From NCBI RefSeq assembly GCF_027922005.1, contig NZ_BSEV01000008.1:186001-250000 (forward strand): a stretch of 64,000 bases of DNA, in the 5' to 3' direction. Positions within the stretch are counted from its first letter, which is position 1. Every line of letters begins with the position of its first letter. The notes below the pieces were generated by a model, which was not told the origin of the DNA, did not search any database, and saw nothing but the letters and a program-made list of their open reading frames with translations. The position numbers and the translations under genes were made by a program. Positions 42,594-62,879 of this stretch are shown here, piece by piece. This stretch comes from Streptosporangium carneum (GTDB lineage Bacteria; Actinomycetota; Actinomycetes; Streptosporangiales; Streptosporangiaceae).

Positions 42594-42630
42594 GGAGCCA
42601 GGATCTCGTCTAGGGAGCCAGGATCTCGTC
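42594..42630. repeat. 17-bp direct duplication at the protease gene 3' end
   Basis: GGAGCCAGGATCTCGTC occurs at 42594-42610 and 42614-42630. The second copy encodes the last residues (DEILAP) of the protease. The first copy, just past the stop codon, is a duplicated remnant of that end. Confidence 0.7.
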
Positions 42631-45258
42631 GATCGCGGCGTGCAGGTTCGGGTGCGGGCCGATGTGGTGGAGGTCGGCGATGTGCTGGCCCGTGCCGGTG
42701 CTTCTGAGGGTGTCGTTGACCTCGACCGGGGTGAGCACCGCGCCCGCGTTCTTGGCCACTCCCTGGAGGTCGGCCACCACTCCGGCCACGATGGCGCCGG
42801 CGCTGGAGGTGCCGTTGAAGGTGCCGGCGTACAGCTTGTTCGGGTTGGTCTCCGAGGGGGTCAGTTCCTGCCAGCCGGGGGCGCCCAGCGTCGCCACGCA
42901 CGCGCCGTAGGCCTGGACGTTCACCCGCAGGCCGTACGTGGAGAACGACAGCGCGCTCCGCTCCGGGGCCGGGCTGGAGCCGGTGCAGTTCGTCCCGCCG
43001 GGGCTGGGCGGCGATCCCGCACCGACCATGATGGCGCCGGAGTCGGGGCGGCCCATGATGGTGGTGGCGTAGGTGTCGCTGGAGTCGTCGAGGTCGTTGC
43101 CGCCGTTGCCCGCCGGCTCGACCACGGTCACCCCTGCCGCGACGGCCAGCACCGTCTGGTCGTAGACGCTGCTGTCCACCTCCCACGGGTACCAACCGCT
43201 GGAGGTCACGATCGCGACCTCGTACAGGATCACGTCGCCGGGGCTGGAGTGCGCGGTGGCGTAGGCGACGGCGTCGGGAACGGCGGTGCCGGACAGGTGC
43301 AGTGTGGCGTTCGGCGCGATGCCCGCGATGCCGACCCCGTTGTCGTCCTGGGCGCCGATGACTCCGGCGACGCCGGTGCCGTGGTGGACGGAGGAGTCGT
43401 TGGAGCACGGGTCGCCGAACATGGGCGGCACCTGGACCACCTCGCCGGCCGCGACGCGCCCGGCCAGGTCCTCATGGCACAGGTTCCACGAGTTCAGCAC
43501 CCCGAGCAGTTCGACCGGGGACGTCCTGCCGGTGGTGGTGCCGTCGCCGAGACGGCCGCTGCCGTTGGCGCCCCAGACGTAGAGCCACTGGCCGAGCTTG
43601 GTGACGTTGTGCGCCAGCCCGGCCGCGATCGTCTCGCTGTTCGCGGAGATCGCGATGGGGGTGGTGGAGTCGGTGGTGGTGCCGTTGCCGAGCTGCCCCT
43701 GGGCGTTGTCGCCCCAGGTGTAGGTGTCGGAGGTGGCCGACAACGTCGCGGCGACGCTGTGCAGCGAACCCGCCGACACGCTGCTGACGTTGGTCAGGCC
43801 GGACACCGCGACCGGGGTCTTCCTGTCGGTGGTGGTGCCGTCGCCGAGCTGCCCCTGGGCGTTGTCGCCCCAGGCCTTGACCGTGCCGCCGGAGATCAGG
43901 GCGAGCACGTGGTCGGCGCGGCTGCTGACCTGGCTGACGCCGGTCAGGCCGGACACCGCGACCGGGGAGATCCTGTCGGTGGTGGTGCCGTCGCCGAGCT
44001 GCCCCTGGCTGTTGTCACCCCAGGCCTTGACCGTGCCGGTGGAGAGCACCGCGACCGAGTGGGCGGTTCCCGCCGCGACGGTGCCGAGCGTCGCGGACAC
44101 CCCCGTGAGGCCGGGGACGGCGATCGCGACCGGCGAGTCGGTGCCCGCGTAGCCGAGCTGGCCCTGGCTGTTGTCGCCCCAGGCCCGGACGGTGCCGTCG
44201 GCCAGGACGGCCAGGGCATGGCCCGCGCCCGCGCTCACGCCCACCGCGTTGTAGATTCCGGCGACCTGCACCGGGACCGAGCTGTCGGTGAGGGTGCCGT
44301 TGCCGAGCTGACCCTGGCTGTTGTCGCCCCAGGCCCACACGGTGCCGTCGTTCTTCATTGCGACCGAGAAGGCGTTGCCCGCGGAGACGGCGGTGACGCC
44401 GGTCAGGCCGGGGACGGCGACCGGGACCTTCTTGGTCGTGGTGTGCCCCAGACCGAGCTGGCCCTGGGCGTTGTCACCCCACGACCACACCTGCCCGAAC
44501 GTCGGGGCCCACGACACCAGCAGGGAGTGGTCGTCACCCGCCGCCACCGTCTGCTGCCCGTACAGCGGGGTCACCACGGACTGGACCTCGATGTCGGTGA
44601 CCGTGATGCCGTCGCCCTTGCCGCCGGGCTGCGCGTTGGCGTAGTCGGCGTCGACCCCTCCGCCCTGGACGGAGTTGGCCGCGTTTCGGTACTTCTGGTG
44701 CGAGCTCAACGGCTCGGTGGGGGATGTCAGGATCGGCTTCGCCTGGGCGATCTCCACCGACGGCAGGGCGTTCAGGTCGCTCAGCAGCGACTCGATGCCC
44801 TTGGGCACGGTGACGACGAACCATGAGTTCAGGTCGGGCAGCTCCCGGCCGACCCGCTTCTCCAGCTGGAGGCGCTGCTGGGTGACCTTCGTCTCGGGGG
44901 TGGACGACAGCGGCCTGATCGACGCGCCCTTGTACTTGGCCAGCACCCGCTGCACCTCGGAGGCGTCGGCCGAGTTCTCCGCGACCAGTTTGCGGTCGCG
45001 CAGCCGTACCTCCCGGTCGGCCTTGAACTTCACCGACAACTGGGTGGTGGAGAACCCCTTGGGAAGCGGCCCGTGCGTCCCGGGTGCCTTCCCCTTGTCC
45101 TTGCTGTGGTCATAGGCCTGAGCGGGTTCGGCCCAGGCTGTCCCCGCCGAGACCATCCCGGACAGCGCACCGACCGCCACGGCCAGCACGGCCGCGGCCA
45201 GTCGCCGACGCGACGACCATAAACTTCTATGAATCCGGGCATTGGAGTGAACGGACAA
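42610..45258 (-). CDS. Secreted subtilisin-type protease with an inserted RCC1 propeller (copy 1)
   Basis: The 882-residue protein has a signal peptide (about 1-44, AWA end, RRR before the core). A prodomain-like part follows (about 65-180, LPDLNSWFVVTVPKGIESLL). The S8 catalytic domain is split: D222 (GDGITVTDIEVQS), then seven RCC1 repeats of about 50 residues (225-588, WGDNSQGQLGNGT type), then SWNLCHEDLAGRV, H626 (HHGTGVAGV), oxyanion N718 (PAGNGG) and S818 (GTSSAG). All catalytic residues are present, so it may be active. The TTG at 45258 is chosen because its paralogues start at the same place behind AGGAGA. Extracellular; substrate unknown. Confidence 0.9.
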   Translation of the reverse strand: MSVHSNARIHRSLWSSRRRLAAAVLAVAVGALSGMVSAGTAWAEPAQAYDHSKDKGKAPGTHGPLPKGFSTTQLSVKFKADREVRLRDRKLVAENSADASEVQRVLAKYKGASIRPLSSTPETKVTQQRLQLEKRVGRELPDLNSWFVVTVPKGIESLLSDLNALPSVEIAQAKPILTSPTEPLSSHQKYRNAANSVQGGGVDADYANAQPGGKGDGITVTDIEVQSVVTPLYGQQTVAAGDDHSLLVSWAPTFGQVWSWGDNAQGQLGLGHTTTKKVPVAVPGLTGVTAVSAGNAFSVAMKNDGTVWAWGDNSQGQLGNGTLTDSSVPVQVAGIYNAVGVSAGAGHALAVLADGTVRAWGDNSQGQLGYAGTDSPVAIAVPGLTGVSATLGTVAAGTAHSVAVLSTGTVKAWGDNSQGQLGDGTTTDRISPVAVSGLTGVSQVSSRADHVLALISGGTVKAWGDNAQGQLGDGTTTDRKTPVAVSGLTNVSSVSAGSLHSVAATLSATSDTYTWGDNAQGQLGNGTTTDSTTPIAISANSETIAAGLAHNVTKLGQWLYVWGANGSGRLGDGTTTGRTSPVELLGVLNSWNLCHEDLAGRVAAGEVVQVPPMFGDPCSNDSSVHHGTGVAGVIGAQDDNGVGIAGIAPNATLHLSGTAVPDAVAYATAHSSPGDVILYEVAIVTSSGWYPWEVDSSVYDQTVLAVAAGVTVVEPAGNGGNDLDDSSDTYATTIMGRPDSGAIMVGAGSPPSPGGTNCTGSSPAPERSALSFSTYGLRVNVQAYGACVATLGAPGWQELTPSETNPNKLYAGTFNGTSSAGAIVAGVVADLQGVAKNAGAVLTPVEVNDTLRSTGTGQHIADLHHIGPHPNLHAAIDEILAP

Positions 45259-45440
45259 CAAACTCTCCTCTGGCGTCGTCTTCGACGCACGAGTTCAGAG
45301 CCTCACCATCAGTGACCCCGGGCATGCCGAACAGCGACGGCGTGCTTCCCGAGCGCATTGATCCGGAGCCTCGACGCCACCGGAAGGCCCATTACTCGCG
45401 CAATCGACATACGTCATGAAAACAACAGACCCGACGAATA

Positions 45441-45603
45441 AGCATAGGCCGATCACCCACTTAAAAATCAACCTTTAATGCGATTTACACGATCGGCTGT
45501 TAAGTGGGCACACGGAGTTATTTCATCGATTCTTAAAAGGTTTGATCTGTCGCGAAAATTTAATGAGGGTACGCTTGACAGCGATCACAAAAGCCCGTAG
45601 AAA
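45441..45603. promoter_or_regulatory. Conserved divergent promoter module, copy 1
   Basis: On the minus strand TTGATT (45466-45471) and TATGCT (45441-45446), 19 bases apart, point at the protease gene. On the plus strand TTGACA (45575-45580), 17 bases and TAGAAA (45598-45603) form a near-consensus promoter pointing away from it. The 100 bases between them contain GATTTACACG.TCGG and CATCGATTC elements that recur in copies 2 and 3. Confidence 0.7.
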
Positions 45604-45609
45604 TGACGG

Positions 45610-45705
45610 TCATTCGATATTCGACCGCGTTCCGTGTCCGGCCGGTCGTCGTACGCGACCACGTCGCGGGAAGGGTGGCCCCCGGCGGGGGCCCGCCGGG
45701 CTTCC
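45610..45705 (+). ncRNA. Candidate small RNA from the divergent promoter
   Basis: The strong plus-strand promoter at 45575-45603 is not followed by a protein gene. About 75 bases downstream CCCGGCGG (45681-45688) and CCGCCGGG (45693-45700) form a stable hairpin followed by CTTCCTTCC. This gives a predicted transcript of about 95 bases. The downstream sequence is partly shared with copy 3. It is inference only. Confidence 0.3.
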
Positions 45706-46275
45706 TTCCGGAGCCGGTGGACTTCCCTTCGGAGAAGGCGCGCACGAACCACCGGAGAAGGCTCGCACGGACCACGCGCTCTTCCCGGAACAGGACACTG
45801 CCACGAGAGGGCGGCTTCCGGAGCGGAGCGGATCCGGGCGAAACCCCGGTGAAACAGAGCCGAAGGAAACACGCCCCTGACGGCCCTCATCGTGCGAGAA
45901 TTTCGGACCTCATCGTGCGAGAAACACCCCGCCACACCACGGGGACGAACAAACGCGGTTCTCAGGGCACGAACACGGCACGGCGACGACCGGACGACAC
46001 TCGCCCTCGCGAACGCCGCAGCCACATGCCGACGCGTGGAAAAGGCGAGTCGACGGCCGTCGACGCTCGGCCTCCGCCTCGAAATCCCGCACCCACTCGC
46101 CGAAGTCCCGCGTGTCTGTCATGTTCCGCACGGCACGGCTGGCATGTGCAGAAACGGCTGGCCTCGTGTGGAGGATTCGGTGGGGATTTTCCCGGCTGCG
46201 GTAGGGCACGCCCTACCCCCGGTACGGCTGCCGACATGACTGTCCTGGCGATCACGGGCCGACAGACTTCAGGGC

Positions 46276-47400
46276 ATGGGGAGATCAACTGTGCGACGGA
46301 TGGCAGCGGTCGGCGTGCTGACGGCGGTGGCGCTGAGTGCGGGGGCTCCGGCCTTCGCGGCGGCGGCCGGCCCGGCGGATCCGCAGACGATGCTGGACAC
46401 GCTGACCAAGGCGGACGGGTTCACGGGCGCGTTGCTGCACACGAGTGACGGGGGAACGCTCACCTCGGGGGTGGCCGAGCGCGGAACCGACACGCCGATG
46501 GTCGGGGCGGAGGGGAGATTCAGGATCGCCAGCGTGACCAAGCCGGTCATGGCGGTCGCGGTGTTGCAGCTCGTGGCACAGGGGCGCATCGAGCTGGACG
46601 CTCCGCTGGAGCGCTACCTGCCCGGAGTGGTGCGGGGCAAGGGAGGCGACGGCCGGAAGATCACGGTACGGCAGGTGCTGCAGCAGACCAGCGGGCTGCC
46701 GGAGTACGTGTTCCTGGTGGACTGGAACAAGCCGTTTCCCGACACCAAGGGATACCTGGCCCTGGCCCTGGCACAGAAACCCACGGGGAAGCCGGGTGAG
46801 CGGTGGGCCTACTCCAACACCAACTACCTGGTGGCGGGGATGATCGTGAACAGGGTCACCGGGCAGGACTTCCGCGTCGTGACGGCCAGGAACATCTTCG
46901 GCAGGCTCGGGCTCAAGGGCACCTACTGGCCCAGGCGCGGGGAGACGGGTCTGCGTGGGCCGCACGCCCGCTTCTACGGCACCCTCCCGACCGCTCCCGA
47001 CAAGGAGGGCGACGTCACCGCGCTGCCCGGCTACGAGTTGGGCGCCAGCGGCGGGCTGGTGTCCACCCCGGCCGACATGAACCGTTTCTGGGAGGGGGTC
47101 TTCAACGGCGAGCTGGTCCCCGACGCGACTCTGCGCGCCATGTTCTCGCCGACGGTCGCGACGGCCGATCCCGAGCGATGGCCGCTCAGCGAGAGGTACG
47201 GCCTGGGCCTGGGGAAGCGAAAGCTGCCCTGCGGCGGCACGGCCTGGTTGCACGGCGGTGACGTGCCCGGGGTGACGGTGCTCAGCGGCAGGTCCGAGCG
47301 GGGCCGTACGGCGACGGTCTACGTGACCGGCTCGGCCGACACCCCCCGCAAAGCCGCCGACCTGATCGCGACCTTCGACGCGGCCATGTGCGCCGGGTGA
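46276..47400 (+). CDS. Secreted serine hydrolase / D-Ala-D-Ala carboxypeptidase-like protein
   Basis: The 374-residue protein starts with a signal peptide (about 1-31, AFAAAA cleavage region). It has S86-V-T-K89 (RIASVTKPVMAVAV), the YSN triad in RWAYSNTNYLVAGMIV, and HGG in TAWLHGGDVPG. This is the class C beta-lactamase/DD-peptidase fold, and the YSN and secretion fit a cell-wall carboxypeptidase of the Streptomyces R61 type. The ATG at 46276 has only a weak CAGGGC before it. The gene is monocistronic and converges on the oxidoreductase gene. Confidence 0.9.
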   Translation: MGRSTVRRMAAVGVLTAVALSAGAPAFAAAAGPADPQTMLDTLTKADGFTGALLHTSDGGTLTSGVAERGTDTPMVGAEGRFRIASVTKPVMAVAVLQLVAQGRIELDAPLERYLPGVVRGKGGDGRKITVRQVLQQTSGLPEYVFLVDWNKPFPDTKGYLALALAQKPTGKPGERWAYSNTNYLVAGMIVNRVTGQDFRVVTARNIFGRLGLKGTYWPRRGETGLRGPHARFYGTLPTAPDKEGDVTALPGYELGASGGLVSTPADMNRFWEGVFNGELVPDATLRAMFSPTVATADPERWPLSERYGLGLGKRKLPCGGTAWLHGGDVPGVTVLSGRSERGRTATVYVTGSADTPRKAADLIATFDAAMCAG

Positions 47401-47416
47401 GACCGGGTCCGGTGTC

Positions 47417-48403
47417 TCAGAGCGCGACGACGACCTTCCCCGCGGCGTGTCCCTCCTCCGCGTACCTGACGGCGGCGGGGATCTCCTCGAACCGGTAGCG
47501 CCGGTCGACGACGGGGGTGACCCTGCCGTCCTCGACGAGTTCGGTCAGCGTCATCAGGTTCTGTTTGTTCTCCGTGCACCGGACCACATTCGTCAGGAAC
47601 ATCCTCTGGGACACGAACGGCGAAACCGCGAGCGCCGAGATGATGTGCCCCATGGGTTGCAGCCATCGGCCACCCGGTCCGCCGACGGCGACGTAGGTCC
47701 CCCTGGGGGTCAGCGCCCGTCGGCAGGCCGATCCCGGGCGGCTTCCCGCGATGTCCAGCATCAGGTCGTAGCGCCTGCCGTTCCGCGTGAAATCCTCCTT
47801 GGTGTAGTCGACGACCTCGTCCGCGCCGATCGACCGGACCAGGTCCGTGTTCCGCGGGCCGCAGACGCCGGTGACGTGCGCGCCGAACGCCTTGGCGAGT
47901 TGCACGGCGAACGTGCCCACGCCTCCTGAGGCCCCGTTGACGAGGACTCTGTGCCCCGGCTGAACCCGCCCCTGGTCGCGCAGGCCCAGCAGGGCGGTGT
48001 TGGCGGCCAGCGGCACCGCCGCCGCCTGCTCGAACGACAGGTTCTTCGGTTTGGGCGCCAGTTCGCCTTCCTTGATGCAGACGTACTCGGCGAAGCCGCC
48101 CTGTTTGGACATCGCGAACACCTCGTCGCCGGGGCGGAACTCCGTCACGTCCCTGCCGACCGCCTCGACCTGTCCCGCCACGTCGGCGCCCAGGATGTCG
48201 ATCTTCGGCTTGCGCAGGCCGAGGCCGCCGCCCATCAGGCGCGCGAGGTACGGCTCGCCTCTCATGAGGTGCCAGTCGTACGGCTGGACGGAGGTGGCGC
48301 GCACCCGGACCAGCACCTCGTCGTCGCCGGGCACGGGTCTGTCGAGGTCGGTGAGCTCCAACGCCTCGGGTGGGCCGTACGAACGCAGGACGAACGCCTT
48401 CAT
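47417..48403 (-). CDS. NAD(P)-dependent alcohol dehydrogenase / quinone oxidoreductase-like protein
   Basis: The 328-residue protein follows the medium-chain dehydrogenase plan: MKAFVLRSYGPPEALELTDLDRPVPGDDEVLVRV, SVQPYDWHLMRGEP, ILGADVAGQVEAVGRDV, GASGGVGTFAVQLAKAFGAHVTGVCGPRN. Zinc ligands are missing, as in NADPH:quinone reductases; VCGPRN is typical of this NADP-binding branch. It probably reduces quinones or enones in the cytoplasm. GAGGAG lies before the ATG at 48403; longer forms would include unlikely Arg-rich sequence. It ends 16 bases from the convergent hydrolase gene. Confidence 0.92.
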   Translation of the reverse strand: MKAFVLRSYGPPEALELTDLDRPVPGDDEVLVRVRATSVQPYDWHLMRGEPYLARLMGGGLGLRKPKIDILGADVAGQVEAVGRDVTEFRPGDEVFAMSKQGGFAEYVCIKEGELAPKPKNLSFEQAAAVPLAANTALLGLRDQGRVQPGHRVLVNGASGGVGTFAVQLAKAFGAHVTGVCGPRNTDLVRSIGADEVVDYTKEDFTRNGRRYDLMLDIAGSRPGSACRRALTPRGTYVAVGGPGGRWLQPMGHIISALAVSPFVSQRMFLTNVVRCTENKQNLMTLTELVEDGRVTPVVDRRYRFEEIPAAVRYAEEGHAAGKVVVAL

Positions 48404-48686
48404 CACATTCTCCTCATCCATCACCGGTGCGGGGGTCTTCTGCCGCGCAGCGGGCCCGCCGGGGACCGCCGCGCTCACGGATCGACGTCGTGGGCCGCGT
48501 CGACAGGGCCGAGACGTCGCCGCCCTGAGAACGGCGAGCGTGTCACGGGCCACGAGAAATCAGCGTAGAAGGCCTGTTCAGAGGGCTCATCAGCCGAAAG
48601 TACGCCTGATTGGCGGCTGATCGGCCGGCTCAGGTCAGACCGTTCCGCCGATGAACCGTCACCGTCCCGGTCGTCACGATCGGGTC

Positions 48687-49463
48687 ATGACCGACGAGAG
48701 CCTGACAGAACACCTTCCGCCGCAGAGAGGCGACCGGGCGACGAACGGCGGGCGCACGGAACGGACTTCCGCCGTGGCCTCCTCAGCCGGGACGTCCTGG
48801 CTCGTGCCTGCCGCGCTGCTTCTGCTCAGCGCGATTCCGGTGATCGCCGGAACCGTCCGCCTGACCGAGCTGACGGGCGGCGCGGAGGTCACCCCGGCGA
48901 ACGCGCGGTTCTTCGCCGCTCCCCTGCCCGTGGTGCTGCACATCCTCGGTGTCAGCCTGTACAGCGTCGCGGGGGCCTTCCAGTTCGCCCCCCGTCTCCG
49001 CCGCCGGAGGCCCGGCTGGCACCGCGTCGCCGGACGGGTCCTGGTCCTGTGCGGACTCGTCTCGGCGCTTTCCGGGCTGTGGATGACCCTGTTCTATCCG
49101 CGCCCCGCCGGTGACGGTGATCTCGTGTCCGCTCTCCGGCTCGTGTTCGGCTCGGCCATGCTCCTGGCCGTGGTTCTCGGTTTCACCGCGATCCGGCGGC
49201 GGGACTTCGCCCGGCACCGCGCCTGGATGATCCGTGGTTACGCGATCGGCCTGGGCGCGGGCACGCAGGCGCTGACCCACCTGCCCTGGTTCCTGCTCGT
49301 CGGCACGCCTGGCGAGCTTCCCAGAGCGCTGCTCATGGGCGCCGGTTGGGTGATAAACGTCGCCGTGGCCGAATGGATCATCCGCAGGCGGCCGAACAGG
49401 CCGGGCCGCGCCAGGTCAGGTCCCGCCGACGCGGGCGGTCGCACGACCCGGCTCAGCTCCTGA
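48687..49463 (+). CDS. DUF2306 membrane protein
   Basis: The 258-residue protein has a polar N-terminus of about 35 residues and five to six hydrophobic helices. Features of DUF2306 are visible: FFAAPLPVVLHILGVSLYSVAGAFQFAPRLRRRRPGWHRVAGRVLVLCGL and IRRRDFARHRAWMIRGYAIGLGAGTQ. The conserved His residues (HILG, HRVAG, HRAWM) suggest a membrane metal or haem site. The function of the family is not known to me. The ATG at 48687 lacks a strong ribosome site; another ATG 36 bases upstream is possible. Its 3' end overlaps the response regulator gene by 11 bases. Confidence 0.85.
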   Translation: MTDESLTEHLPPQRGDRATNGGRTERTSAVASSAGTSWLVPAALLLLSAIPVIAGTVRLTELTGGAEVTPANARFFAAPLPVVLHILGVSLYSVAGAFQFAPRLRRRRPGWHRVAGRVLVLCGLVSALSGLWMTLFYPRPAGDGDLVSALRLVFGSAMLLAVVLGFTAIRRRDFARHRAWMIRGYAIGLGAGTQALTHLPWFLLVGTPGELPRALLMGAGWVINVAVAEWIIRRRPNRPGRARSGPADAGGRTTRLSS

Positions 49464-52300: not shown

Positions 52301-52316
52301 CCCGCGCCCGCCCTCC

Positions 52317-52342: not shown

Positions 52343-52670
52343 ACCTTTCCCGAGCCCGCACCCCTTGGAAACAGCCGGAGCCCCGGCCCCCGGCCACGGA
52401 GCTTCGTCCCGGCCGGGCCGGTGCGCGGTGCCGAGCGCCGCAGCGCGACCCCACGGCGCTCGGCACCGCACGCCGGCCCGGCCGGACACATCACCTGCGC
52501 GATACGGGACGCCCCGGGCACACGGCGCGGCCGTGAAGGCGGAGACACGGCCCGGCCGTGGAGGCGGACATCGTGGCGGGCTCCGCCGACACCGCAGGAC
52601 AGACGCGCTTCGCATCGGAGCCGTGTCCGGACGGCACGCCATCCCCCCTGCCGCCCTACAAGGAGAACAG

Positions 52671-55600
52671 ATGTCTCATCCCCCACAGCGCCCAGCCTTA
52701 CCCAGGGGTCTGGTCCGGGCGCTCGTCGGCATGCTCGCGCTCTTGTGCCTGGTCCTTCCCCAGAGCATGGCGAACGCCGCGCCGTCCGAGCCCGGCAAGA
52801 TCGACGCGGCGGTCCGCGCCGACCTGAAGGACGGCCAGGCTACCTTCTGGGTTCGCCTGAAGGGCGAGGCCGATCTCGGCGCCGCCCGCGCGGCCGTCAC
52901 GAAGGCGGCCAAGGCCAAGGCGGTGTACGACTCCAAGACCTCGCACGCGAAGAGGTCCCAGGCCAGGCTCCGCGCGTTGCTGACCGAACGGCACGCCGAG
53001 CACACCCCGTTCTGGATCGTCAACGCGGTGAAGGTGACCGCCGACGCCGAGCTGGCGGCACGGATCGCCGCCCTGCCCGAGGTGGCCGCCGTCGAACCCG
53101 TCGGCACGGTCGAGATGCCCAAACACAAGCCGGGCAAGGCGGACGCGAGGGCAAGGGCGGCGAACACGGTCGAATGGAACATCGACCGGATAAAGGCGCC
53201 GCGGGTGTGGAACGAGCTGAACAACCGGGGCGAGGGCATCGTCGTCGCCGTCTTCGACAGCGGAGTGGACTTCGAGCACCCGGAGCTGATCGAGCAGTAC
53301 CGCGGCAGGCGTGCCGACGGCAGCGTGGACCACAACTACAACTGGTTCGACCCCAGCGGACTCTGCCTCGAGCAGGCGCCGTGCGACCGGCAGGGGCACG
53401 GCACGCACGTGGCCGGCATCATGACCGGCAAGAACGGGATCGGGGTCGCGCCCGGCGCCCGGTGGATCGCCACCAACGGCTGCAGCACCGGCAGCTGCGG
53501 GGACGCCGATCTGCTGGCGGCCGGGCAGTGGATGATCGCGCCCACCGACCTGAACGGCCACAACCCCCGTCCCGACCTCGCCCCCGACATCATCAACAGC
53601 TCCTGGGGCTGGATGCAGCGTGTCTTCGACTACCGGCAGACCGTCGAGGCGTGGGTCGCCGCGGGCATCTTCCCGATGTTCGCCAACGGCAACGAGGGGA
53701 ACGAAACACCGTGCGACTCAAGCATCAGCCCCGCCAAGTACGTCGCGAGCTACAGCGCGGGCAACCTCGACAGCAACGGCAACATGTACTACACCTCCAG
53801 CCGGGGTCCGGGTGACAACGGGGAGATCAAACCCAACATCTCCGCCCCGGGGACCGACATACGCTCGGCGGCTCTCGGCGGTGGATACGTCAACGACACC
53901 GGGACCTCCATGGCGTCCCCGCACGTGGCCGGCGCGGTCGCGCTGCTGTGGTCCGCCGCGCCGTCCCTGAGGAGGGACGTGGCCGCCACCCGGCTGCTGC
54001 TCGACGACACCGCCGTCGACATCCCCGACACGAGATGCGGCGGGACATCCGACGACAACAACGTCGCCGGTGAGGGCGCCCTGGACGCCCACGCCGCCGT
54101 GCAGGCCGCGCCGGACGAACCGCTCGGCGACCTGCGCGGCACGCTCACCGCCGGCGGCCTGCCCCTGCCCAAGGCCGACGTGACGGTCACCGGGCCGCTG
54201 GGCCGTACGGTGGCCACAGGCGAGGACGGCACCTACTCCGTGCCGCGCCTGCCTCCCGGCGACTACCAGGTCACCGCCACCCGGTTCGGCTACCAGGCCT
54301 CCTCCCGGACGGTGACGGTCGCGGACGGCCAGACGGTGAGCGCCGACCTCACGCTGACCCGCCTGCCCCACGCTGTCGTCTCCGGCACGGTCACCGCGGC
54401 GGGCGTACCCGAGCCGGGTGCCACGATCACCGTGTCCGGCACGTCGGTCAAGGTGGTCACCGACGGTGCGGGCCGCTACCGGATGGAGCTGCCGCACGGC
54501 TCCCACCGCCTGGAGATCAAAGCCACCTCCCGCTGCGTCGCCGCGGCCACCGAGCAGATCACCATGACCGCGGACCAGACCGAGAACATCGATCTGCGGC
54601 TGCGCAGCGACGCCTTCGGCTACACCTGCACCGAGGGCGCCGAGCCGTACGTGGCGGGCACCCAGCGCCTCGCGCTGGCCGGCGCAACGGCGGCCGAGCG
54701 GGTGACGCTGCCGTTCCCGGTGCCCTTCTACGGCGCCCCCCGGAGCGAGATCTGGGTCGCCTCCGACGGGTTCGCGTCCTTCACCGCGATCTCATCCGCC
54801 GACGGGCACAACGCGGCCCTGCCGGACGGGGAGTCCCCTCATCTGGCGGTCTATCCGTTCTGGGACGACCTGAACGTGAGCGGCGGCGCCGGCGTCTACA
54901 CCGCCACGGTCGGCACGGCCCCCCGCCGGTCCTTCGTGATCGAATGGCGCGACGTCGCCCTGCTGGACACCGGCCCGCGCCTGTCGTTCTCCGTACTGCT
55001 GGGCGAGGACGGCACGATCGGCTACCGCTACAAGGACCTCGGCACCGACCTCGAGCAGGGCAAGGACGCCACGATCGGGATCGAGAACGCCACCAGCACC
55101 GACGCGCTGCTCTACTCCTACAACACCACCTCGCTCACCAACGGGCAGAGCCTGACGTTCACCGCCGATCGCGGCGTGGTGCGCGGCACGGTCACCGACG
55201 CCAACGACGGCCAGGCGGTGGCCGGGGCGACGGTGACGTTCCCCCACGTGGCCACGTTCACCACCGGCCAGGACGGCACCTTCTACGGCCAGATCCCCGC
55301 CGGAAACCACACCGCGCAGGTGTCCAGGCAGCACTACGGCACCACCACCCGGTACGTGACCGTCGCCCCGCGTGCCGTCACCACCGTGGACACCGCCCTG
55401 ATCACCGGAAAGGTCACCGCCTCACCCGCGCAGGTGAGTCTGACGGCTCCGCCCGGCGCCACCAGGACGGCGACCGTCACACTCACCAACCACGGCTGGC
55501 CGACCCCCTTCGACGTCACCGCCGAATCGGACCGGCCCGGCTGGCTGAGCGTCTCTCCCGGGACGGGCGGACTCCTCAAGGACCAGTCGGCGGCCCTGAC

Positions 55601-55721
55601 CGTCACCGTCTCCACCGCCGGTCTCGCGCCCGGCGACACGCGCAGCGGCGAACTCGTCATCCGCTCGACCAGCGGGCGCCGGCCGGTCTTCCAGGTCCCG
55701 GTGACCCTGACGGTGCCCTGA
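52671..55721 (+). CDS. Large secreted S8 subtilase with carboxypeptidase-regulatory-like domains
   Basis: The 1016-residue protein has a signal peptide (about 1-37), a prodomain (about 40-150), and an S8 domain (170-460) with D196 (VAVFDSGVDFEHPEL), H243 (GHGTHVAGI), oxyanion N341 and S413 (GTSMASPHVA). At least three carboxypeptidase-regulatory-like beta domains follow (about 485-560, 565-640, 840-900), then a beta-rich C-terminal part. This is the bacillopeptidase F-like plan, without an insertion. It acts outside the cell. AAGGAG lies before the ATG at 52671. It may degrade proteins together with the RCC1-type proteases. Confidence 0.93.
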   Translation: MSHPPQRPALPRGLVRALVGMLALLCLVLPQSMANAAPSEPGKIDAAVRADLKDGQATFWVRLKGEADLGAARAAVTKAAKAKAVYDSKTSHAKRSQARLRALLTERHAEHTPFWIVNAVKVTADAELAARIAALPEVAAVEPVGTVEMPKHKPGKADARARAANTVEWNIDRIKAPRVWNELNNRGEGIVVAVFDSGVDFEHPELIEQYRGRRADGSVDHNYNWFDPSGLCLEQAPCDRQGHGTHVAGIMTGKNGIGVAPGARWIATNGCSTGSCGDADLLAAGQWMIAPTDLNGHNPRPDLAPDIINSSWGWMQRVFDYRQTVEAWVAAGIFPMFANGNEGNETPCDSSISPAKYVASYSAGNLDSNGNMYYTSSRGPGDNGEIKPNISAPGTDIRSAALGGGYVNDTGTSMASPHVAGAVALLWSAAPSLRRDVAATRLLLDDTAVDIPDTRCGGTSDDNNVAGEGALDAHAAVQAAPDEPLGDLRGTLTAGGLPLPKADVTVTGPLGRTVATGEDGTYSVPRLPPGDYQVTATRFGYQASSRTVTVADGQTVSADLTLTRLPHAVVSGTVTAAGVPEPGATITVSGTSVKVVTDGAGRYRMELPHGSHRLEIKATSRCVAAATEQITMTADQTENIDLRLRSDAFGYTCTEGAEPYVAGTQRLALAGATAAERVTLPFPVPFYGAPRSEIWVASDGFASFTAISSADGHNAALPDGESPHLAVYPFWDDLNVSGGAGVYTATVGTAPRRSFVIEWRDVALLDTGPRLSFSVLLGEDGTIGYRYKDLGTDLEQGKDATIGIENATSTDALLYSYNTTSLTNGQSLTFTADRGVVRGTVTDANDGQAVAGATVTFPHVATFTTGQDGTFYGQIPAGNHTAQVSRQHYGTTTRYVTVAPRAVTTVDTALITGKVTASPAQVSLTAPPGATRTATVTLTNHGWPTPFDVTAESDRPGWLSVSPGTGGLLKDQSAALTVTVSTAGLAPGDTRSGELVIRSTSGRRPVFQVPVTLTVP

Positions 55722-55759
55722 CAGCGGGCGCCCCACCGCCGCTGACCGCCCCGCGCCGA

Positions 55760-55795
55760 AGCCCCCGTCCCAGCCTCCCGGCCGGGACGGGGGCT
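55760..55795 (+). terminator. Hairpin after the large subtilase gene
   Basis: AGCCCCCGTCCC (55760-55771) pairs with GGGACGGGGGCT (55784-55795) around a 12-base loop, 38 bases after the stop codon. It can serve both the subtilase and the convergent NTF2-fold gene. Confidence 0.75.
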
Positions 55796-55903
55796 CCCCC
55801 GTCCCCACCCCCTACCAGGAACAGCGCCGTTCCCCGGGGCTCTTCCGGGAGCTCGCGGCCGACGACCGTACGGTTCCCCGACGGCACCCGCCGGTACGCG
55901 GTG

Positions 55904-56305: not shown

Positions 56306-56367
56306 CACCGCACGTCCTTTCAGCGGGTAGAAATCACCGAGACGCGGAAACGCTAGGAGGCGCTCTC

Positions 56368-56757
56368 GTGACTCACCAAACGGTTGGCCACCCGCCCCGG
56401 CCGGGCCTGCCCGACGACCCTCTCGCGAGCGTCGGCGAACCCACCCCGTCCTGTCCGGTGGAGGTCACCCTCGCGGCCCTGCGCGGTCGCTGGACGACCC
56501 TCGTGATCCGCGAGCTTCTGCGCGGCGACCGCACCTTCAGCGAACTCCGCCAGGCGCTGCCCGCGCTGTCGGACAAGGTGCTGTCCGACCGGCTGGCGCA
56601 CCTCGTCCAGGTCGGTGTCCTGGACCGCCGCCGTCAGGCCGACTGGCCGCCCCGCACCCACTACGGGCTCACGCCCCACGGACGACGCCTCGGCCCCGTC
56701 CTCCAGGCGCTCTGGGACTGGGGCGCCCAGCAGCCGCCCCCGGCGTCCGAGCCCTGA
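56368..56757 (+). CDS. HxlR-family transcriptional regulator
   Basis: The 129-residue protein is a single HxlR winged helix: CPVEVTLAALRGRWTTLVIRELLRGDRTFSELRQALPALSDKVLSDRLAHLVQVGVLDRRR, then a GLTPHGRRL wing. The conserved Cys (C29) may sense oxidants or electrophiles, as in several family members. The GTG start follows GGAGG at seven bases. It is divergent from the NTF2-fold gene across 62 bases, the normal layout for a regulator and its target. Confidence 0.9.
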   Translation: MTHQTVGHPPRPGLPDDPLASVGEPTPSCPVEVTLAALRGRWTTLVIRELLRGDRTFSELRQALPALSDKVLSDRLAHLVQVGVLDRRRQADWPPRTHYGLTPHGRRLGPVLQALWDWGAQQPPPASEP

Positions 56758-56786
56758 TCGCGCCGGCGCGAGAGTTCGCAGGACAT

Positions 56787-56824
56787 GTCCCGGCCCCCGC
56801 GTCGGACGACGCGGGGGCCGGGAC
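56787..56824. terminator. Perfect 17-bp inverted repeat between convergent genes
   Basis: GTCCCGGCCCCCGCGTC (56787-56803) and GACGCGGGGGCCGGGAC (56808-56824) are perfect complements around a four-base loop. It separates the HxlR gene from protease copy 2 and should end transcription from both sides. Confidence 0.85.
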
Positions 56825-56837
56825 GCAAGATGTTCCG

Positions 56838-59507
56838 CTACGGAGCCAGGATGTCGTCGATGGCCGCGTGCAGGTCGGGTTGCGGGCCGATGTGGTGGGG
56901 GTCGCCGGTGGCCTGCGGCGTGCCGGTCAGTTTGAGGGTGTCGCGGACCTGGGCCGGGGTGAGCACCCCGGTCGCCGCCTTGGCCACGCCCTGCAGGTCG
57001 GCCACCGCGCCGGCGACGACGGCGCTGGCGCTGGAGGTGCCGCTGAAGACGCCGGTGTACATCTTGGTCGGATCGGTCACCGACGGGGTCAGGTCGTTGG
57101 AGCTGGTGGTGCCCAGGGTCGCCACGCACGCGCCGTAGGCCTGAACGTCCACGCGTGAGCCGTACGTGGAGAACGACATGGCGGTCCGCTCGGCGGGCGG
57201 GGAGGAGCCGAGGCAGTTCGTCCCGCCGGGGCTGGGCGGCGCGCCCGCCCCGACCACGATGGCGCCGGAGTCGGGACGCCCCATGAAGGTGGCGGCGTAG
57301 GCGTCGGTCGGGTCGTCGAGGTCGTTGCCGCCGTTGCCCGCCGCCTCGACCACGGTCACCCCGGCCGCGGTGGCCAGCACCGTCTGGTCGTAGATGCTGC
57401 TGTCCACCTCCCAGGGGTACCAGCCTTCGTCGAGGTTGCCGGGCACCACCGCGAGCTCGTACAGGATCACGTCACCGGGTCCGGAAGTCGAGGTGGCGTA
57501 GGCGACGGGGTCGGAGATGTCGGTGCCGGTCAGGTGCAGCGTGGCGTGCGGCGCGATGCCCGCCATGCCGACCCCGTTGTCGTCCTTGGCGCCGATCACC
57601 CCGGCGACGGAGGTGCCGTGGTAGACCGAGACGTCGTTGGAGCACGGGTCGCCGAACATGGACGGCAGCTGCACCACCGCGCCGGTCGCGACGCGCCCGG
57701 CGAGGTCCTCATGACACAGGTTCCACCGGGTGGTCACCCCGCTCAGCTGGGTCGGGCTGGTCCGGGAGACGGTGGTGCCGTCGCCGAGCCGGCCGCTGCC
57801 GTTGGAACCCCAGACGTGGAAGGTCGGGGTGACCTTGGTGAGGGTGTGGGACAGGCCCGCCGCGATCCAGTCGGCGGACACGGAGGTCGCGACGGGCGTC
57901 TTGGAGTCGACGGTGGTGCCGTTGCCGAGCTGGCCCTGGGCGTTGTCGCCCCAGGTGTACGTCGCCGTGGGCGTGCCGGACGACGACGTCGTGGCGACGC
58001 TGTGCAGGGAGCCCGCGGAAACGCTGTTGACGTTGCTCAGGCCGGGGACGGTGGTCGGGGTCTTCCTGTCGGTCAGGGTGCCGTCGCCGATCTGGCCCTG
58101 GCTGTTGTCGCCCCACGCCTTGACCGTGCCTGCGGACAGCACGGCGAGAACGTGGTCGCCGCGGCTGCTGACCTGGGTGACGCCGCTCAGCCCGGGGACG
58201 GTGGTCGGGGAGAGCCGGTCGATGACGGTGCCGTCGCCGATCTGGCCCTGGCTGTTGTCGCCCCACGCCTTGACCGTGCCTGCGGACAGCAGGGCGACCG
58301 AGTTGCCGCCTCCCGCCGCGACACCGCCGCTTCCGGCGAACACACCCGTGAGGCCGGGAACGGTGGTCGCGGTCGAGGAGTCGAAGCCCGTGCTGCCGTA
58401 GCCGAGCTGGCGCTGGCTGTTGTCGCCCCAGGCCTTGACGGTGCCGTCGGACAGGACGGCCAGGACATGGCCCGCGCCCGCGCTCACCGCCATCGCGTTG
58501 GTGATGCCGGTGACCTGCACCGGGACCAGGCTGTCGGTGAAGGTGCCGTTGCCGAGCTGCCCCTGGCTGTTGTCGCCCCAGGCCCACACGGTGCCGTCGA
58601 TCTTCATTGCGACCGAGTAACCGTTGCCGGCGGAGACGGACTGGACACCGGTCAGGCCGGGAACCCGTGACGGGACCTTCCTGCCCGTGGTGTGGCCCAG
58701 ACCGAGCTGGCCCTGGGCGTTGTCACCCCACGCCCACGCCTCTCCGCCGGAAGCACCCCACAGAAGCGCCAGCGAGTGGTCGTTGCCCGCGGCGATGGTC
58801 TGCGGCCCGTAGCCGGGGATCACCGTGGACTGGACCTCGAGGTCGGTGACGGTGATGCCGTCGCCCTTGCCGCCGGGCTGCGCGTTGGCGTACTCGGCGT
58901 CGACCCCTCCGCCCTGTACGGAGTTGGCCGCGTTGCGGTACTTCTGGTGCGAGCTTAGCGGCTCGGTGGGCGACACCGGGATGGGCTTGGCCTGGGCGAT
59001 CTCGACCGACGGCAGGGCGTTCAGGTCTTTCAGCAGCGGCTCGACGCCCTCGGGAACGGTGACGACGAACCACGAGTTCAGGTCGGGGAGTCTGCGACCG
59101 GTCTTCTTCTCCAACTGGAGGCGCCGCTCGGTGACCTTCGTCTCAGGGGTGGACGACAGCGGCCTGATCGACGCGCCCTTGTACCTGGCCAGCACCCGCT
59201 GGATCTCGGAGGCGTCGGCCGCGTCCTCCGCGACCAGCTTGCGGTCGCGCAGCCGTACGACCAGGTCGGGCTTGAACTTCACCGACAGCTGGGTTCTGGA
59301 GAACCCTTTGGGAAGCGGCCCGTGCGTCCCCGGCGCGACCCCCTTCTCCTTGCTGTGGTCGTAGGGGGGAGCGGGTTCGGCCGAGGCCGGTCCGGCCGAG
59401 ACCACTCCCGGCACCATGCCGAAGGTCACGGTGAGCAGGGCCGCGGCGAGCCGCCGTCGTGCTGTCTGAGACCTTCCACGGTCCCGGACATTGGAGTGAA
59501 CTGACAA
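56838..59507 (-). CDS. Secreted subtilisin-type protease with an inserted RCC1 propeller (copy 2)
   Basis: The 889-residue paralogue of copy 1 keeps each part: signal peptide (1-43, ASA end), prodomain-like region, D222 (GITVTDLEVQS), seven RCC1 repeats (about 245-590), RWNLCHEDLAGRV, H630 (YHGTSVAGV), N725 (AAGNGG) and S825 (GTSSASA). Two RCC1 repeats read GQIGDGT in place of GQLGDGT. The TTG start follows AGGAGAATTCG, shared with copy 3. The upstream module with divergent promoters is present as well. Copies 2 and 3 are adjacent and in the same direction. An extracellular, active protease with an unknown target is the likely role. Confidence 0.9.
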   Translation of the reverse strand: MSVHSNVRDRGRSQTARRRLAAALLTVTFGMVPGVVSAGPASAEPAPPYDHSKEKGVAPGTHGPLPKGFSRTQLSVKFKPDLVVRLRDRKLVAEDAADASEIQRVLARYKGASIRPLSSTPETKVTERRLQLEKKTGRRLPDLNSWFVVTVPEGVEPLLKDLNALPSVEIAQAKPIPVSPTEPLSSHQKYRNAANSVQGGGVDAEYANAQPGGKGDGITVTDLEVQSTVIPGYGPQTIAAGNDHSLALLWGASGGEAWAWGDNAQGQLGLGHTTGRKVPSRVPGLTGVQSVSAGNGYSVAMKIDGTVWAWGDNSQGQLGNGTFTDSLVPVQVTGITNAMAVSAGAGHVLAVLSDGTVKAWGDNSQRQLGYGSTGFDSSTATTVPGLTGVFAGSGGVAAGGGNSVALLSAGTVKAWGDNSQGQIGDGTVIDRLSPTTVPGLSGVTQVSSRGDHVLAVLSAGTVKAWGDNSQGQIGDGTLTDRKTPTTVPGLSNVNSVSAGSLHSVATTSSSGTPTATYTWGDNAQGQLGNGTTVDSKTPVATSVSADWIAAGLSHTLTKVTPTFHVWGSNGSGRLGDGTTVSRTSPTQLSGVTTRWNLCHEDLAGRVATGAVVQLPSMFGDPCSNDVSVYHGTSVAGVIGAKDDNGVGMAGIAPHATLHLTGTDISDPVAYATSTSGPGDVILYELAVVPGNLDEGWYPWEVDSSIYDQTVLATAAGVTVVEAAGNGGNDLDDPTDAYAATFMGRPDSGAIVVGAGAPPSPGGTNCLGSSPPAERTAMSFSTYGSRVDVQAYGACVATLGTTSSNDLTPSVTDPTKMYTGVFSGTSSASAVVAGAVADLQGVAKAATGVLTPAQVRDTLKLTGTPQATGDPHHIGPQPDLHAAIDDILAP

Positions 59508-59680
59508 CGAATTCTCCTATGGAGCCCTCAATGCCGCATGAGTTCAGAGCGTCACATCCGGTTACCGGGACATTCCGATCGGCGGCGGCATGCTTCCTGA
59601 GAACATCAATCCGAGGCCGCCGGGAGACCCGTTAATCACACAATCGACATATGTGGTGAAACCTGCAGACCCGGCGAGTC

Positions 59681-59843
59681 AGCATAGGCTGATCACCCAC
59701 ACGAAAATCAAGCGGGTAACCGATTTACACGGTCGGACGCCGAGCGGACACGCGGAGTCATTTCATCGATTCCTGCAATGTCGACCTGTCGTCGGAAAGT
59801 TAATTTCGGCACGGTTGACAGGGCCGGGGAAAAGTCGTAGAAA
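59681..59843. promoter_or_regulatory. Conserved divergent promoter module, copy 2
   Basis: Minus strand: TTGATT (59706-59711) and TATGCT (59681-59686), 19-base spacer. Plus strand: TTGACA (59815-59820), 17 bases and TAGAAA (59838-59843). Intervening GATTTACACGGTCGG and TTTCATCGATTCCTG match copies 1 and 3. The plus-strand promoter would transcribe toward the 3' end of copy 3, antisense to it. Confidence 0.7.
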
Positions 59844-60169
59844 AGATCGCCCTCGCCGCCCGGTCACCTGTCGCACTCATTTCCACCCTGCCGTCTCGCG
59901 CCGTCACGCCGCGACACCGGACTCCTACGGCAAGCGCCCGGCCGGTTCAGGGTTCCGGTGACACTTCGCGACTTTTGGGGTCGAGGTCGCACGAGAACGG
60001 CCACTCCGTGATTACGCGAAGTTTGTGAAGACACCGAAGATCACGCGGTGGCCGCAGCCGACGGCGTCGGCCATGAGGTTGAGCCAGGCGAAACCCAGGT
60101 GAATGAGAGCGGAAAGGAACGCGTCCTGACGGCCCACAGCGGGTCGAGTGTGTCGGCGGGCGACGGGTC

Positions 60170-60199
60170 CCGGCCCCGCGTCGTTCAGCGCGGGGCCGG
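60170..60199. terminator. Hairpin after protease copy 3
   Basis: CCGGCCCCGCG (60170-60180) pairs with CGCGGGGCCGG (60189-60199) around an eight-base loop, 17 bases past the stop of copy 3 on the minus strand. Copies 1 and 2 have comparable stems in the same place. Confidence 0.75.
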
Positions 60200-60215
60200 A
60201 GCGCACGGTGATCCG

Positions 60216-62879
60216 CTACGGAGCCAGGATGGCGTCGATGGCGGCGTGCAGGTCCGGTTGGGGGCCGATGTGGTGGGGGTCGCCGGCGGGCTGCGGCGTG
60301 CCGGTCAGTTTGAGGGTGTCGCGGACCTGGGCCGGGGTGAGCACCCCGCTCGCCGCCTTGGCGACTCCCTGGAGGTCGGCCACCGCGCCGGCGACGACGG
60401 CGCTGGCGCTGGAGGTGCCGCTGAAGTAGGGCGCGTACATCTTGGTCGGATCGGTCTCCGAGGGGGTCAGGTCCTGCCAGCCGGGAACGCCCAGGGTCGC
60501 CACGCACGCGCCGTAGGCCTGGACGTCGACGCGCGAGCCGTACGTGGAGAACGACAGCGCGGTCCGCTCGGCGGCAGGGGTGGACCCGGTGCAGTTCGTC
60601 CCGCCGGGGCTCGGCGGCGCTCCCGCGCCGACCATGACGGCGCCGGAGTCGGGACGTCCCATGACGGTGACGGCGTAGGGGTCGGTCGGGTCGTCGAGGT
60701 CGTTGCCGCCGTTGCCCGCCGCCTCGACCACGGTCACCCCGGCCGCGGTCGCCAGCACCGTCTGGTCGTAGACGCTGCTTTCCAGCTCCCAGGGATACCA
60801 GGGACCGGAGATCGGTATCGCGCTCTCGTACACGAACACGTCGCCCGGCACGGAGTGCGCGGTGGCGTAGGCGACGGAGTCGGGAATGTCGGTGCCGGTC
60901 AGGTGCAGCTTGGCGTGCGGCGCGATGCCCGCCATGCCGACCCCGTTGTCGTCCTGGGCGCCGATGACCCCGGCGACGGCGGTGCCGTGCTGCACCGCGA
61001 AGTCGTTGGAGCACGGGTCGCCGAACATGGTCGGCGACTGGACCACCGCACCGGTCGCGACACGCCCGGCCAGGTCCTCGTGGCACATGTTCCACGAGTT
61101 GGTCACCCCGAGCAGCGGGGTCGGACCGGTCCGGGAGGTGGTGGTGCCGTCGCCGAGCCGCCCGCTGCCGTTGGAGCCCCAGACGTGGAACACCGGGCTG
61201 ACCTTGCTGACGGTGTGCGCCAGGCCCGCCGCGATCGTGTCAGCGGACAGGGAGAGCGCGACGGGGGTGGTGGAGTCGACGACGGTGCCGTTGCCGAGCT
61301 GCCCCTGGGCGTTGTCGCCCCAGGTGTACGTCGTCGCGGGCGAACCGGCCGACGCCGTCGTGACGGCGCTGTGCAGGGAGCCCGCGGAGACGCTGCTGAC
61401 GTTGGCCAGGCCGGACACCGCGACCGGGGTCTTCCTGTCGACGACGGTGCCGTTGCCGATCTGCCCCTGGGAGTTGTCGCCCCACGCCTTGACCGTGCCG
61501 CTGGTGAGCAGGGCGAGCACGTGGTCGGCGCGGCTGCTGACCTGGCTGACGCCGGTCAGGCCGAAGACGGTGACAGGGGAGGTCCGGTCAGTGGTGGTGC
61601 CGTCGCCGAGCTGCCCCTGGCTGTTGTCACCCCAGGCCTTGACCGTGCCGCCGGAGAGCAGGGCGACCGAGTGGGCGGTTCCCGCCGCGACGCTGCCGAA
61701 CACGGTGGACACGCCCGTGAGGCCGGGGACGACGGTCGCGGTCGAGGAGTCGGCGCCCGTGGTGCCGTAGCCGAGCTGGCGCTGGCTGTTGTCACCCCAG
61801 GCCTTGACGGTGCCGTTCGACAGGACGGCCAGGACGTGGCCGGCGCCCGCGCTCACGCCGACCGCGTTGGTGATGCCGGTGACCTGCACCGGGACCGAGC
61901 TGTCGACGACGGTGCCGTTGCCGAGCTGGCCCTGGCTGTTGTCGCCCCAGGCCCACACGGTGCCGTCGAGCTTCAGCGCGACCGAGAAACCGTTGCCGGC
62001 GGAGACGGCGCTGACGCCGGTCAGAGTGGGGATCCGCACCGGGACCTTCTTGGTCGTGGTGTTCCCGATGCCGAGCTGGCCCTGGGAGTTGTCGCCCCAC
62101 GCCCACACATTCCCGGCCCCCAACGCGCCCCACGCCATCATCAGCGTGTGCTCGTCGCCCGCGGAGATCGACTGCGGCCCCTGGTTCGGGAGCACCGTGC
62201 TCTGCACCTCGAGGTCGGTGACCGTGATGCCGTCGCCCTTGCCGCCGGGCTGCGCGTTGGCGTACTCGGCGTCGACCCCTCCGCCCTGTACGGAGTTGGC
62301 CGCGTTGCGGTACTTCTGGTGCGAGCTCAACGGCTCGCTGGGAGACGCCAGGTTCGGCCTGGCCTGGGCGATCTCCACCGACGGCAGGGCGTTCAGGTCG
62401 CCCAGCAGCGACTCGATGCCCTCGGGAACGGTGACGACGAACCACGAGTTCAGGTCAGGCAGCTCACGGCCGGTCCGCTTCTCCAACTGGAGGCGCTGCC
62501 GGGTGACCTTCTCCTCGGACGTGCGCGACAACGGCCTGATCGACGCGCCCTTGTGCTTGGCCAGCACCCGCTGCACCTCGGCGGCGTCGGCGGTGTTCTC
62601 CGCGACCAGTTTCTGACCGCGGAGCCGTACGGTCAGATCTGGCTTGAACTTCACCGTGAGCTGGGTCGTGGAGAAGCCCTCGGGAAGCGGGCCGTGCGTG
62701 CCCGGTGCTTTCCCCTTGTCCTTGCTGTGGTCGTACGCCGGGACCGGTTCGGCCGAGGCGGGGCCCGCCGGTGTCACAGCCGACAGCGTGCCGACGGTCA
62801 CGGCGAGCACGGCCGCGGCGAGCCGCCGCATCGACGACCGTGACCTTCCGCGATCCCGAGCATTGGAGTGAGCTGACAA
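60216..62879 (-). CDS. Secreted subtilisin-type protease with an inserted RCC1 propeller (copy 3)
   Basis: The 887-residue protein repeats the plan of copies 1 and 2: signal peptide (1-43, ASA end), prodomain-like region, D222 (GITVTDLEVQS), seven RCC1 repeats (about 255-590), SWNMCHEDLAGRV, H631 (QHGTAVAGV), N723 (AAGNGG), S823 (GTSSASA). The propeller loops differ more between copies than the catalytic core does. The TTG start is preceded by GAGGAGAATTCG. Its divergent promoter module lies at 63063-63226. Likely extracellular and active; target unknown. Confidence 0.9.
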   Translation of the reverse strand: MSAHSNARDRGRSRSSMRRLAAAVLAVTVGTLSAVTPAGPASAEPVPAYDHSKDKGKAPGTHGPLPEGFSTTQLTVKFKPDLTVRLRGQKLVAENTADAAEVQRVLAKHKGASIRPLSRTSEEKVTRQRLQLEKRTGRELPDLNSWFVVTVPEGIESLLGDLNALPSVEIAQARPNLASPSEPLSSHQKYRNAANSVQGGGVDAEYANAQPGGKGDGITVTDLEVQSTVLPNQGPQSISAGDEHTLMMAWGALGAGNVWAWGDNSQGQLGIGNTTTKKVPVRIPTLTGVSAVSAGNGFSVALKLDGTVWAWGDNSQGQLGNGTVVDSSVPVQVTGITNAVGVSAGAGHVLAVLSNGTVKAWGDNSQRQLGYGTTGADSSTATVVPGLTGVSTVFGSVAAGTAHSVALLSGGTVKAWGDNSQGQLGDGTTTDRTSPVTVFGLTGVSQVSSRADHVLALLTSGTVKAWGDNSQGQIGNGTVVDRKTPVAVSGLANVSSVSAGSLHSAVTTASAGSPATTYTWGDNAQGQLGNGTVVDSTTPVALSLSADTIAAGLAHTVSKVSPVFHVWGSNGSGRLGDGTTTSRTGPTPLLGVTNSWNMCHEDLAGRVATGAVVQSPTMFGDPCSNDFAVQHGTAVAGVIGAQDDNGVGMAGIAPHAKLHLTGTDIPDSVAYATAHSVPGDVFVYESAIPISGPWYPWELESSVYDQTVLATAAGVTVVEAAGNGGNDLDDPTDPYAVTVMGRPDSGAVMVGAGAPPSPGGTNCTGSTPAAERTALSFSTYGSRVDVQAYGACVATLGVPGWQDLTPSETDPTKMYAPYFSGTSSASAVVAGAVADLQGVAKAASGVLTPAQVRDTLKLTGTPQPAGDPHHIGPQPDLHAAIDAILAP

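Follow-up and report, generated by a model that had tools for sequence, protein, structure and literature searches.

RCC1-split subtilases of Streptosporangium carneum: a propeller inserted between the catalytic Asp and His

Three subtilase genes interrupted by RCC1 repeats

The window analysed here, that is, the whole stretch of 64,000 nucleotides of Streptosporangium carneum DNA, carries three related genes on its minus strand. An earlier note, made from the letters alone, had described them as subtilases whose catalytic domain is split by an RCC1 propeller, and the three open reading frames, with translations of 883, 889 and 887 aa, were found on that strand at the positions it had claimed. 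The genes, their parts and the regions upstream of them are the following:

42610..45261, minus strand: copy 1, RCC1-split subtilase, 883 aa (P0001)
44587..45114, minus strand: copy 1, pro-domain and S8 first segment, closing with the catalytic Asp strand TVTDIE
43489..44586, minus strand: copy 1, inserted RCC1 propeller, 366 aa
42613..43488, minus strand: copy 1, S8 second segment (catalytic His, oxyanion Asn, Ser)
45262..45561, minus strand: copy 1, upstream region, resembling those of copies 2 and 3
56838..59507, minus strand: copy 2, RCC1-split subtilase, 889 aa (P0002)
58836..59363, minus strand: copy 2, pro-domain and S8 first segment
57726..58835, minus strand: copy 2, inserted RCC1 propeller, 370 aa
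56841..57725, minus strand: copy 2, S8 second segment
59508..59807, minus strand: copy 2, upstream region, counterpart of that of copy 1
60216..62879, minus strand: copy 3, RCC1-split subtilase, 887 aa (P0003)
62208..62735, minus strand: copy 3, pro-domain and S8 first segment
61095..62207, minus strand: copy 3, inserted RCC1 propeller, 371 aa
60219..61094, minus strand: copy 3, S8 second segment
62880..63179, minus strand: copy 3, upstream region, counterpart of that of copy 1

The upstream regions of the three copies resemble one another across some 300 bases (84% mean column identity in 371 columns, 60 coding bases included), and a GGAG stretch resembling a ribosome-binding site precedes the TTG start in every copy. 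On the plus strand, an unsplit subtilase with three carboxypeptidase-regulatory-like stretches lies between the split copies (window 52365-55721), and copy 1 has as neighbour a serine hydrolase of the beta-lactamase family whose start resembles a signal sequence (window 46276-47400). Three copies had been claimed from the window; the genome holds four, the fourth (L058) being located on another contig, and these four are among 19 S8 matches in the genome.

In each protein, the catalytic Asp lies N-terminal to the RCC1 repeats, within GDGITVTD[IL]E (residues 223, 222 and 222 in copies 1, 2 and 3). The repeats are followed by WN.CHE (592, 595 and 596) and then by the catalytic His (627, 630 and 631), the oxyanion Asn (719, 725 and 723) and the Ser (819, 825 and 823), the order Asp, His, Ser and the oxyanion Asn being complete in all three copies. 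The numbering of copy 1 starts at the earlier of two TTG codons that directly follow each other, and consequently runs one ahead. The range of 626-631 previously given for the His stands, and the position 222 given for the Asp is right for copies 2 and 3 but not for copy 1.

In the window copies, Pfam detected RCC1 (PF00415) as seven stretches per copy, at 201.6-212.2 bits (cut-off 21.7), and WD40_RLD (PF25390) at 233-253 bits (cut-off 150). The insert had been described as seven RCC1 repeats in about 365 residues, which agrees with these seven stretches and with the measured lengths of 366, 370 and 371 residues. Peptidase_S8 (PF00082) matched the second segment only, with 66.1, 75.6 and 79.3 bits against a curated cut-off of 21.8. 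This match begins after the repeats, at residue 612-622 and at profile position 41-48, indicating that the Asp-bearing start of the profile is cut off by the repeats. No model spanning the whole protein was found in the Pfam and NCBIfam scans, the Pfam scan gave no binding domain besides RCC1, and the model for the type VII secretion mycosin (TIGR03921) scored 29.9, 44.5 and 36.9 bits, below its equivalog cut-off of 278.75.

At the level of the sequence, these results confirmed that the three genes encode S8 subtilases with an RCC1 propeller between the strand of the catalytic Asp and the text WNxCHEDL...HGT...GTS, and we regard this split architecture, taken by itself, as practically certain. 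Judging from a signal-peptide-like N-terminus, a pro-domain and the triad, the proteins are apparently secreted, and the S8 core with its retained triad is probably a working, self-processing protease.

The insertion site in the S8 fold

The earlier note had read GWNLNHEDL as ordinary S8 text. This was too general, as such text is typical of one S8 subgroup only (DxExxW...HEDL); the Hymenobacter subtilase L166 reads DSGIDSVHTDL at that segment, which is the canonical S8 text. The members of the subgroup that lack the insert, for which we know of no established name, occur in actinobacteria and myxobacteria and align with the split proteins over the pro-domain, the Asp strand, the HEDL strand, the His, Asn and Ser and the C-terminal part. 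In all 33 unsplit relatives, exactly two residues lie between D-x-E and the W or F of the next strand, whereas the 22 split proteins have 365-379 residues there, occupied by the propeller. Six myxobacterial relatives (L169-L174), read directly, were contiguous and without insert. We also aligned profiles with hhalign, using for the unsplit family 16 chosen sequences (A6). The Asp-side profile of the split proteins (A5) aligned with columns 55-215 of A6 (E 2.2e-32) and the His/Ser-side profile (A2) with columns 218-502 (E 1.7e-68). Since A5 ends at column 215 and A2 starts at column 218, the propeller replaces a two-residue turn just past the Asp strand. As aligned, the site is exact, and what stands in place of the turn is a complete, putatively seven-bladed RCC1 propeller. 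We take the site to correspond to about residues 34-35 of subtilisin BPN', a surface position near the active site.

AlphaFold2 was run on copy 3, from residue 49, with 22 sequences. The model (pLDDT 84.9, pTM 0.81) places the Asp strand at 171-176 and the propeller strands from 190 to 541, in model numbering; the loop before the catalytic His was modelled poorly, with block means of pLDDT of 59-79 over 551-600. The chains ranked highest by Foldseek were then compared with VIA-align. With unprocessed pro-subtilisin (3whi), the copy 3 model aligned at Z 29.3 and 3.5 A over 323 of 355 residues, in the model range 16-834, an alignment that spans the pro-domain and both S8 segments and leaves the predicted propeller looped out. 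With UVR8, the same model aligned at Z 56.2 and 2.1 A over 353 residues, on 175-544. A second model, covering 1199 residues of the longer member L093 (pLDDT 85.7, pTM 0.80), aligned with 3whi at Z 28.8 and 2.9 A over 320 residues (range 16-837), and a second propeller matched at about 855-1199. The S8 core, Asp strand included, is thus predicted to fold round the inserted propeller. In both predicted models the core closes around it, as the earlier note had proposed to check, and the Asp segment lies within the S8 fold, not outside it as that note had considered. The two-residue turn of the relatives and the pro-subtilisin alignment across the propeller likewise uphold the claim of an insertion within the S8 catalytic domain, just past the Asp strand.

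In the alignment of the 22 split proteins (A1), the catalytic Asp is conserved in 21 rows and the His, the oxyanion Asn and the Ser in all. One of the six copies of genome G327 (L142:3425-6004) reads ITVSVIE, with Val where the other rows have the catalytic Asp, and keeps the His, Asn and Ser, and from its sequence could possibly be a natural pseudoprotease. The text that follows the catalytic His is mostly HGT, with HGN in L092, HAT in L093 and L100 and HPT in L099. We also considered a catalytic Asp located after the repeats. The candidate, the Asp of HED, was rejected, as it is Glu in 7 of the 22 split proteins, and no better Asp site was found beyond the RCC1 repeats.

Four Cys columns stand out in the same alignment, with Cys in 22, 22, 21 and 22 of the 22 rows. 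The first (WNxCHED), beside the strand by which the chain re-enters the S8 core, is present in 22/22 split proteins and in 0/33 unsplit ones, a difference between the split proteins and the rest of the DxExxW...HEDL subgroup. Together with the second, which lies before HGT, it brackets the re-entry of the chain into the S8 core, the pair being present in 22/22 (C599 and C623 in copy 3), and we infer a putative disulfide clamp joining the two. The propeller was the least conserved part, the mean share of the commonest residue being 0.635, compared to 0.699 and 0.673 in the other segments.

Distribution and evolution of the split form

The order of domains (S8 Asp, RCC1, S8 His/Ser) was sought in the genomes of the order, class and phylum, where 22 split proteins from 10 genomes were assembled: four in the genome of the window, six in G327, three in G266, two each in G262 and G310, and one each in G316, G252, G291, G237 and G572. 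The closest relative in a named record belongs to Streptosporangium saharense (75% identity across residues 10-884). When 345 genomes of the order were searched for the whole protein, which is how the split proteins of the order were found, full-length matches occurred in at least 9 genomes and a frame-broken one in one more. Some match was present in at least 103 genomes, in most cases only to RCC1 or only to the S8 half. All genome counts are minima, since two candidates were scored per genome in the order and six in the class and phylum. The His/Ser half, as query, matched 23 of 394 genomes of the class, in the split form in G000, G327 and G572 and in the unsplit form in 20, with all matches of at least 51% identity being split and all those of at most 42% unsplit. 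Of 396 genomes of the phylum it matched 10, the genome of the window with the split form and the other nine, including G398, with the unsplit one. No close relative without the insert was found by these His/Ser-half searches of class and phylum.

A further search gave 25 matches in 11 of 19 genomes, and none of the eight matches examined was split; L166 (Hymenobacter, E 1.9e-11) and L158 were examined and left out of the counts. Among plasmids, 102 records matched and none covered 80% of the protein in one place. The Haloferax mediterranei plasmid NZ_CP039140.1 (11615-13096) carries an S8 peptidase matching residues 51-881 in two pieces, with 52% covered over about 1.5 kb, which is apparently the unsplit form in an archaeon. 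The copy of G268 (L101) is broken across frames and was excluded from A1. That of G291 (L099) was retained, its S8 end running out of frame; an RCC1 match lies in another open frame past this end. The frame breaks of L101 and L099 reflect either decay or sequencing error. Comparison of 18 loci and the window, with nine neighbours scanned, suggested no functional partner among the neighbours. A methyltransferase-like gene lies beside L092, L095 and L100, and the pairs L058/L090 and L094/L096 are syntenic.

Beyond the S8 domain, ten split proteins have another RCC1 propeller, 353-358 residues long (L092, L093, L140, two genes of L141, L142, L095, two genes of L097, and L100); they come from G327, G262, G266 and G237. 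In the second gene of L097 this propeller is covered for 230 residues only, and the propeller tree was built without it. In that quick, unrooted tree, the 22 inserted and nine C-terminal propellers formed separate branches (SH-aLRT 100), and a recent origin of the insert by copying of the C-terminal propeller was rejected accordingly. In the unsplit proteins L150 (G736) and L169-L171 (myxobacteria), other repeats are found past the S8 domain, with units like FAVGTDRAVYHKAWD and FDGDGRSDYAVWRPSTG; repeat modules thus recur at the C-terminus in the DxExxW...HEDL group.

In a tree of the His/Ser half with 55 rows, which is unrooted and carries a long-branch warning, one branch parted the 22 split from the 33 unsplit proteins (100/99). 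The split or unsplit state changed once on it, compared to a mean of 17 changes when shuffled, and the propeller is present in every row of the split branch. The simplest reading of the sequences is a single insertion of the propeller. One loss would be formally possible as well; the single insertion is preferred because the unsplit form also occurs in myxobacteria.

That the three copies are under selection had been claimed earlier, and is supported by the codon model (F3x4), with an omega among four paralogs of 0.12 for the pro-domain and Asp strand, 0.25 for the propeller and 0.20 for the S8 second half. For the propeller in six sequences omega was 0.16. On average, therefore, purifying selection acts on all parts. 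Diversifying selection on the propeller, at which a simple count had hinted (dN/dS of 0.73-1.17 in the four paralogs), was rejected, as the codon model gave only 0.25, and we take the simple values to be inflated by the strong third-position GC bias. In a purpose-written implementation, the M7/M8 site tests were not significant (2dlnL of 3.4 and 4.8 for the propeller, 1.3 and 4.9 for the S8 half, 2.2 and 0.4 for the pro-domain), nor were the M1a/M2a tests (2dlnL at most 3.3). The segment trees of the paralogs, which carry no support values, disagree, and exchange between paralogs is possible; if real, it would weaken the site-selection tests.

Possible roles of the propeller, and known systems

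The earlier note had suggested that the propeller could gate the active site or recruit a substrate. The reading that we favour is close to the second of these: the propeller would form a rigid surface platform on the S8 core and hold a protein, either substrate or partner, near the cleft; we infer both this nearness and the docking. The combination of the split S8 architecture with docking of a substrate or partner by the propeller seems to us somewhat more probable than its opposite. Docking is preferred because two precedents exist. One is the P57 subtilase, whose inserted PA domain binds collagen according to PMC5177683, and the other BLIP-II, a member of the RCC1/BLIP-II group of propellers, which is described in PMC9218822 as a product that soil bacteria secrete and as a potent beta-lactamase inhibitor. 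The low constraint on the propeller fits docking, and would also fit a loosely constrained spacer. The link to beta-lactamases that might be drawn from the likeness to BLIP-II and from the beta-lactamase-family gene at 46276-47400 would be only a resemblance.

The propeller could instead keep the secreted protease at the cell wall, a hypha or a polymer, with no role at the active site. The ten members with a second propeller at the C-terminus would suit such adhesion, as would the window copies, in which the Pfam scan leaves the propeller as the one candidate for binding. An anchor, however, has no need to be sited inside the catalytic domain, and the site is identical in 22/22; moreover, the inserted propellers branch apart from the nine C-terminal ones. 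We consider this explanation unlikely, though not far-fetched. A gate or allosteric lever, in which a ligand on the propeller displaces the Asp strand or blocks the cleft, turning the protease on or off, appears distinctly unlikely. The insert does start two residues past the catalytic Asp, and the conserved Cys pair, lying between the strand of re-entry and the catalytic His, might provide a coupling of the two domains, yet the Cys at re-entry might equally insulate the S8 core from the insert. To a more specific version we give little credence: that ligand or prey bound to the propeller would, through the Cys-pinned re-entry strand, position both Asp and His, each paralog being switched on by its own target; if so, the members with two propellers would grip the target from both sides. 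Finally, that a propeller with adjacent ends was merely tolerated in a surface loop, hitch-hiking on the protease, would agree with its being the least constrained segment in omega and in residue conservation, but is barely plausible given purifying selection on it (in the four paralogs and in the six sequences alike), its presence in 22 members with identity to copy 3 down to 46%, and a 55-row tree with no propeller-less row in the split branch.

The split proteins offer a testable system in which to study how proteases acquire substrate specificity. They are a clear example from nature in which a large closed domain separates two residues of the same catalytic triad, the unsplit relatives pinning the insert to a two-residue turn, and the site is a candidate place for mounting binding domains on subtilases. 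With 6, 4, 3, 2 and 2 copies in five of the ten genomes, the variants possibly do different jobs.

Seven repeats are also found in UVR8, RCC1 and the HERC2 RLDs (PF00415, PF25390), and UVR8 matches the whole modelled propeller. The split proteins differ from them in that both propeller ends are tied into a protease core, and the functions of UVR8 and RCC1 themselves are not implied for the insert. Among subtilases, the tripeptidyl peptidase II/pyrolysin group resembles the split proteins in having a large insert that separates the catalytic Asp from the His and is not known to be an RCC1 propeller, and in the PA-domain subtilases the PA domain is located between His and Ser. TPPII is an exopeptidase, as stated in PMC9549277. 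The PA-domain subtilases, such as P57 (PMC5177683), likewise accommodate a separate, substrate-binding domain within the S8 catalytic domain; the PA fold is unlike the RCC1 propeller, and no PA domain was among the Pfam matches of the three window proteins at E 1. The Streptomyces protein BLIP-II is a secreted propeller of the RCC1/BLIP-II group that grips a globular protein (PMC9218822). The predicted copy 3 model aligned with it at Z 28.6 over 243 residues, and phmmer with the insert as query did not match it at E 0.001; BLIP-II is a stand-alone inhibitor, whereas the propeller of the split proteins sits in the protease core. No published account combining RCC1 with a subtilase in this domain order was found in searches of mainly open-access literature. 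Subtilases with inserted domains are known already, as are inserts between Asp and His, and an RCC1 propeller at that place would add to them.
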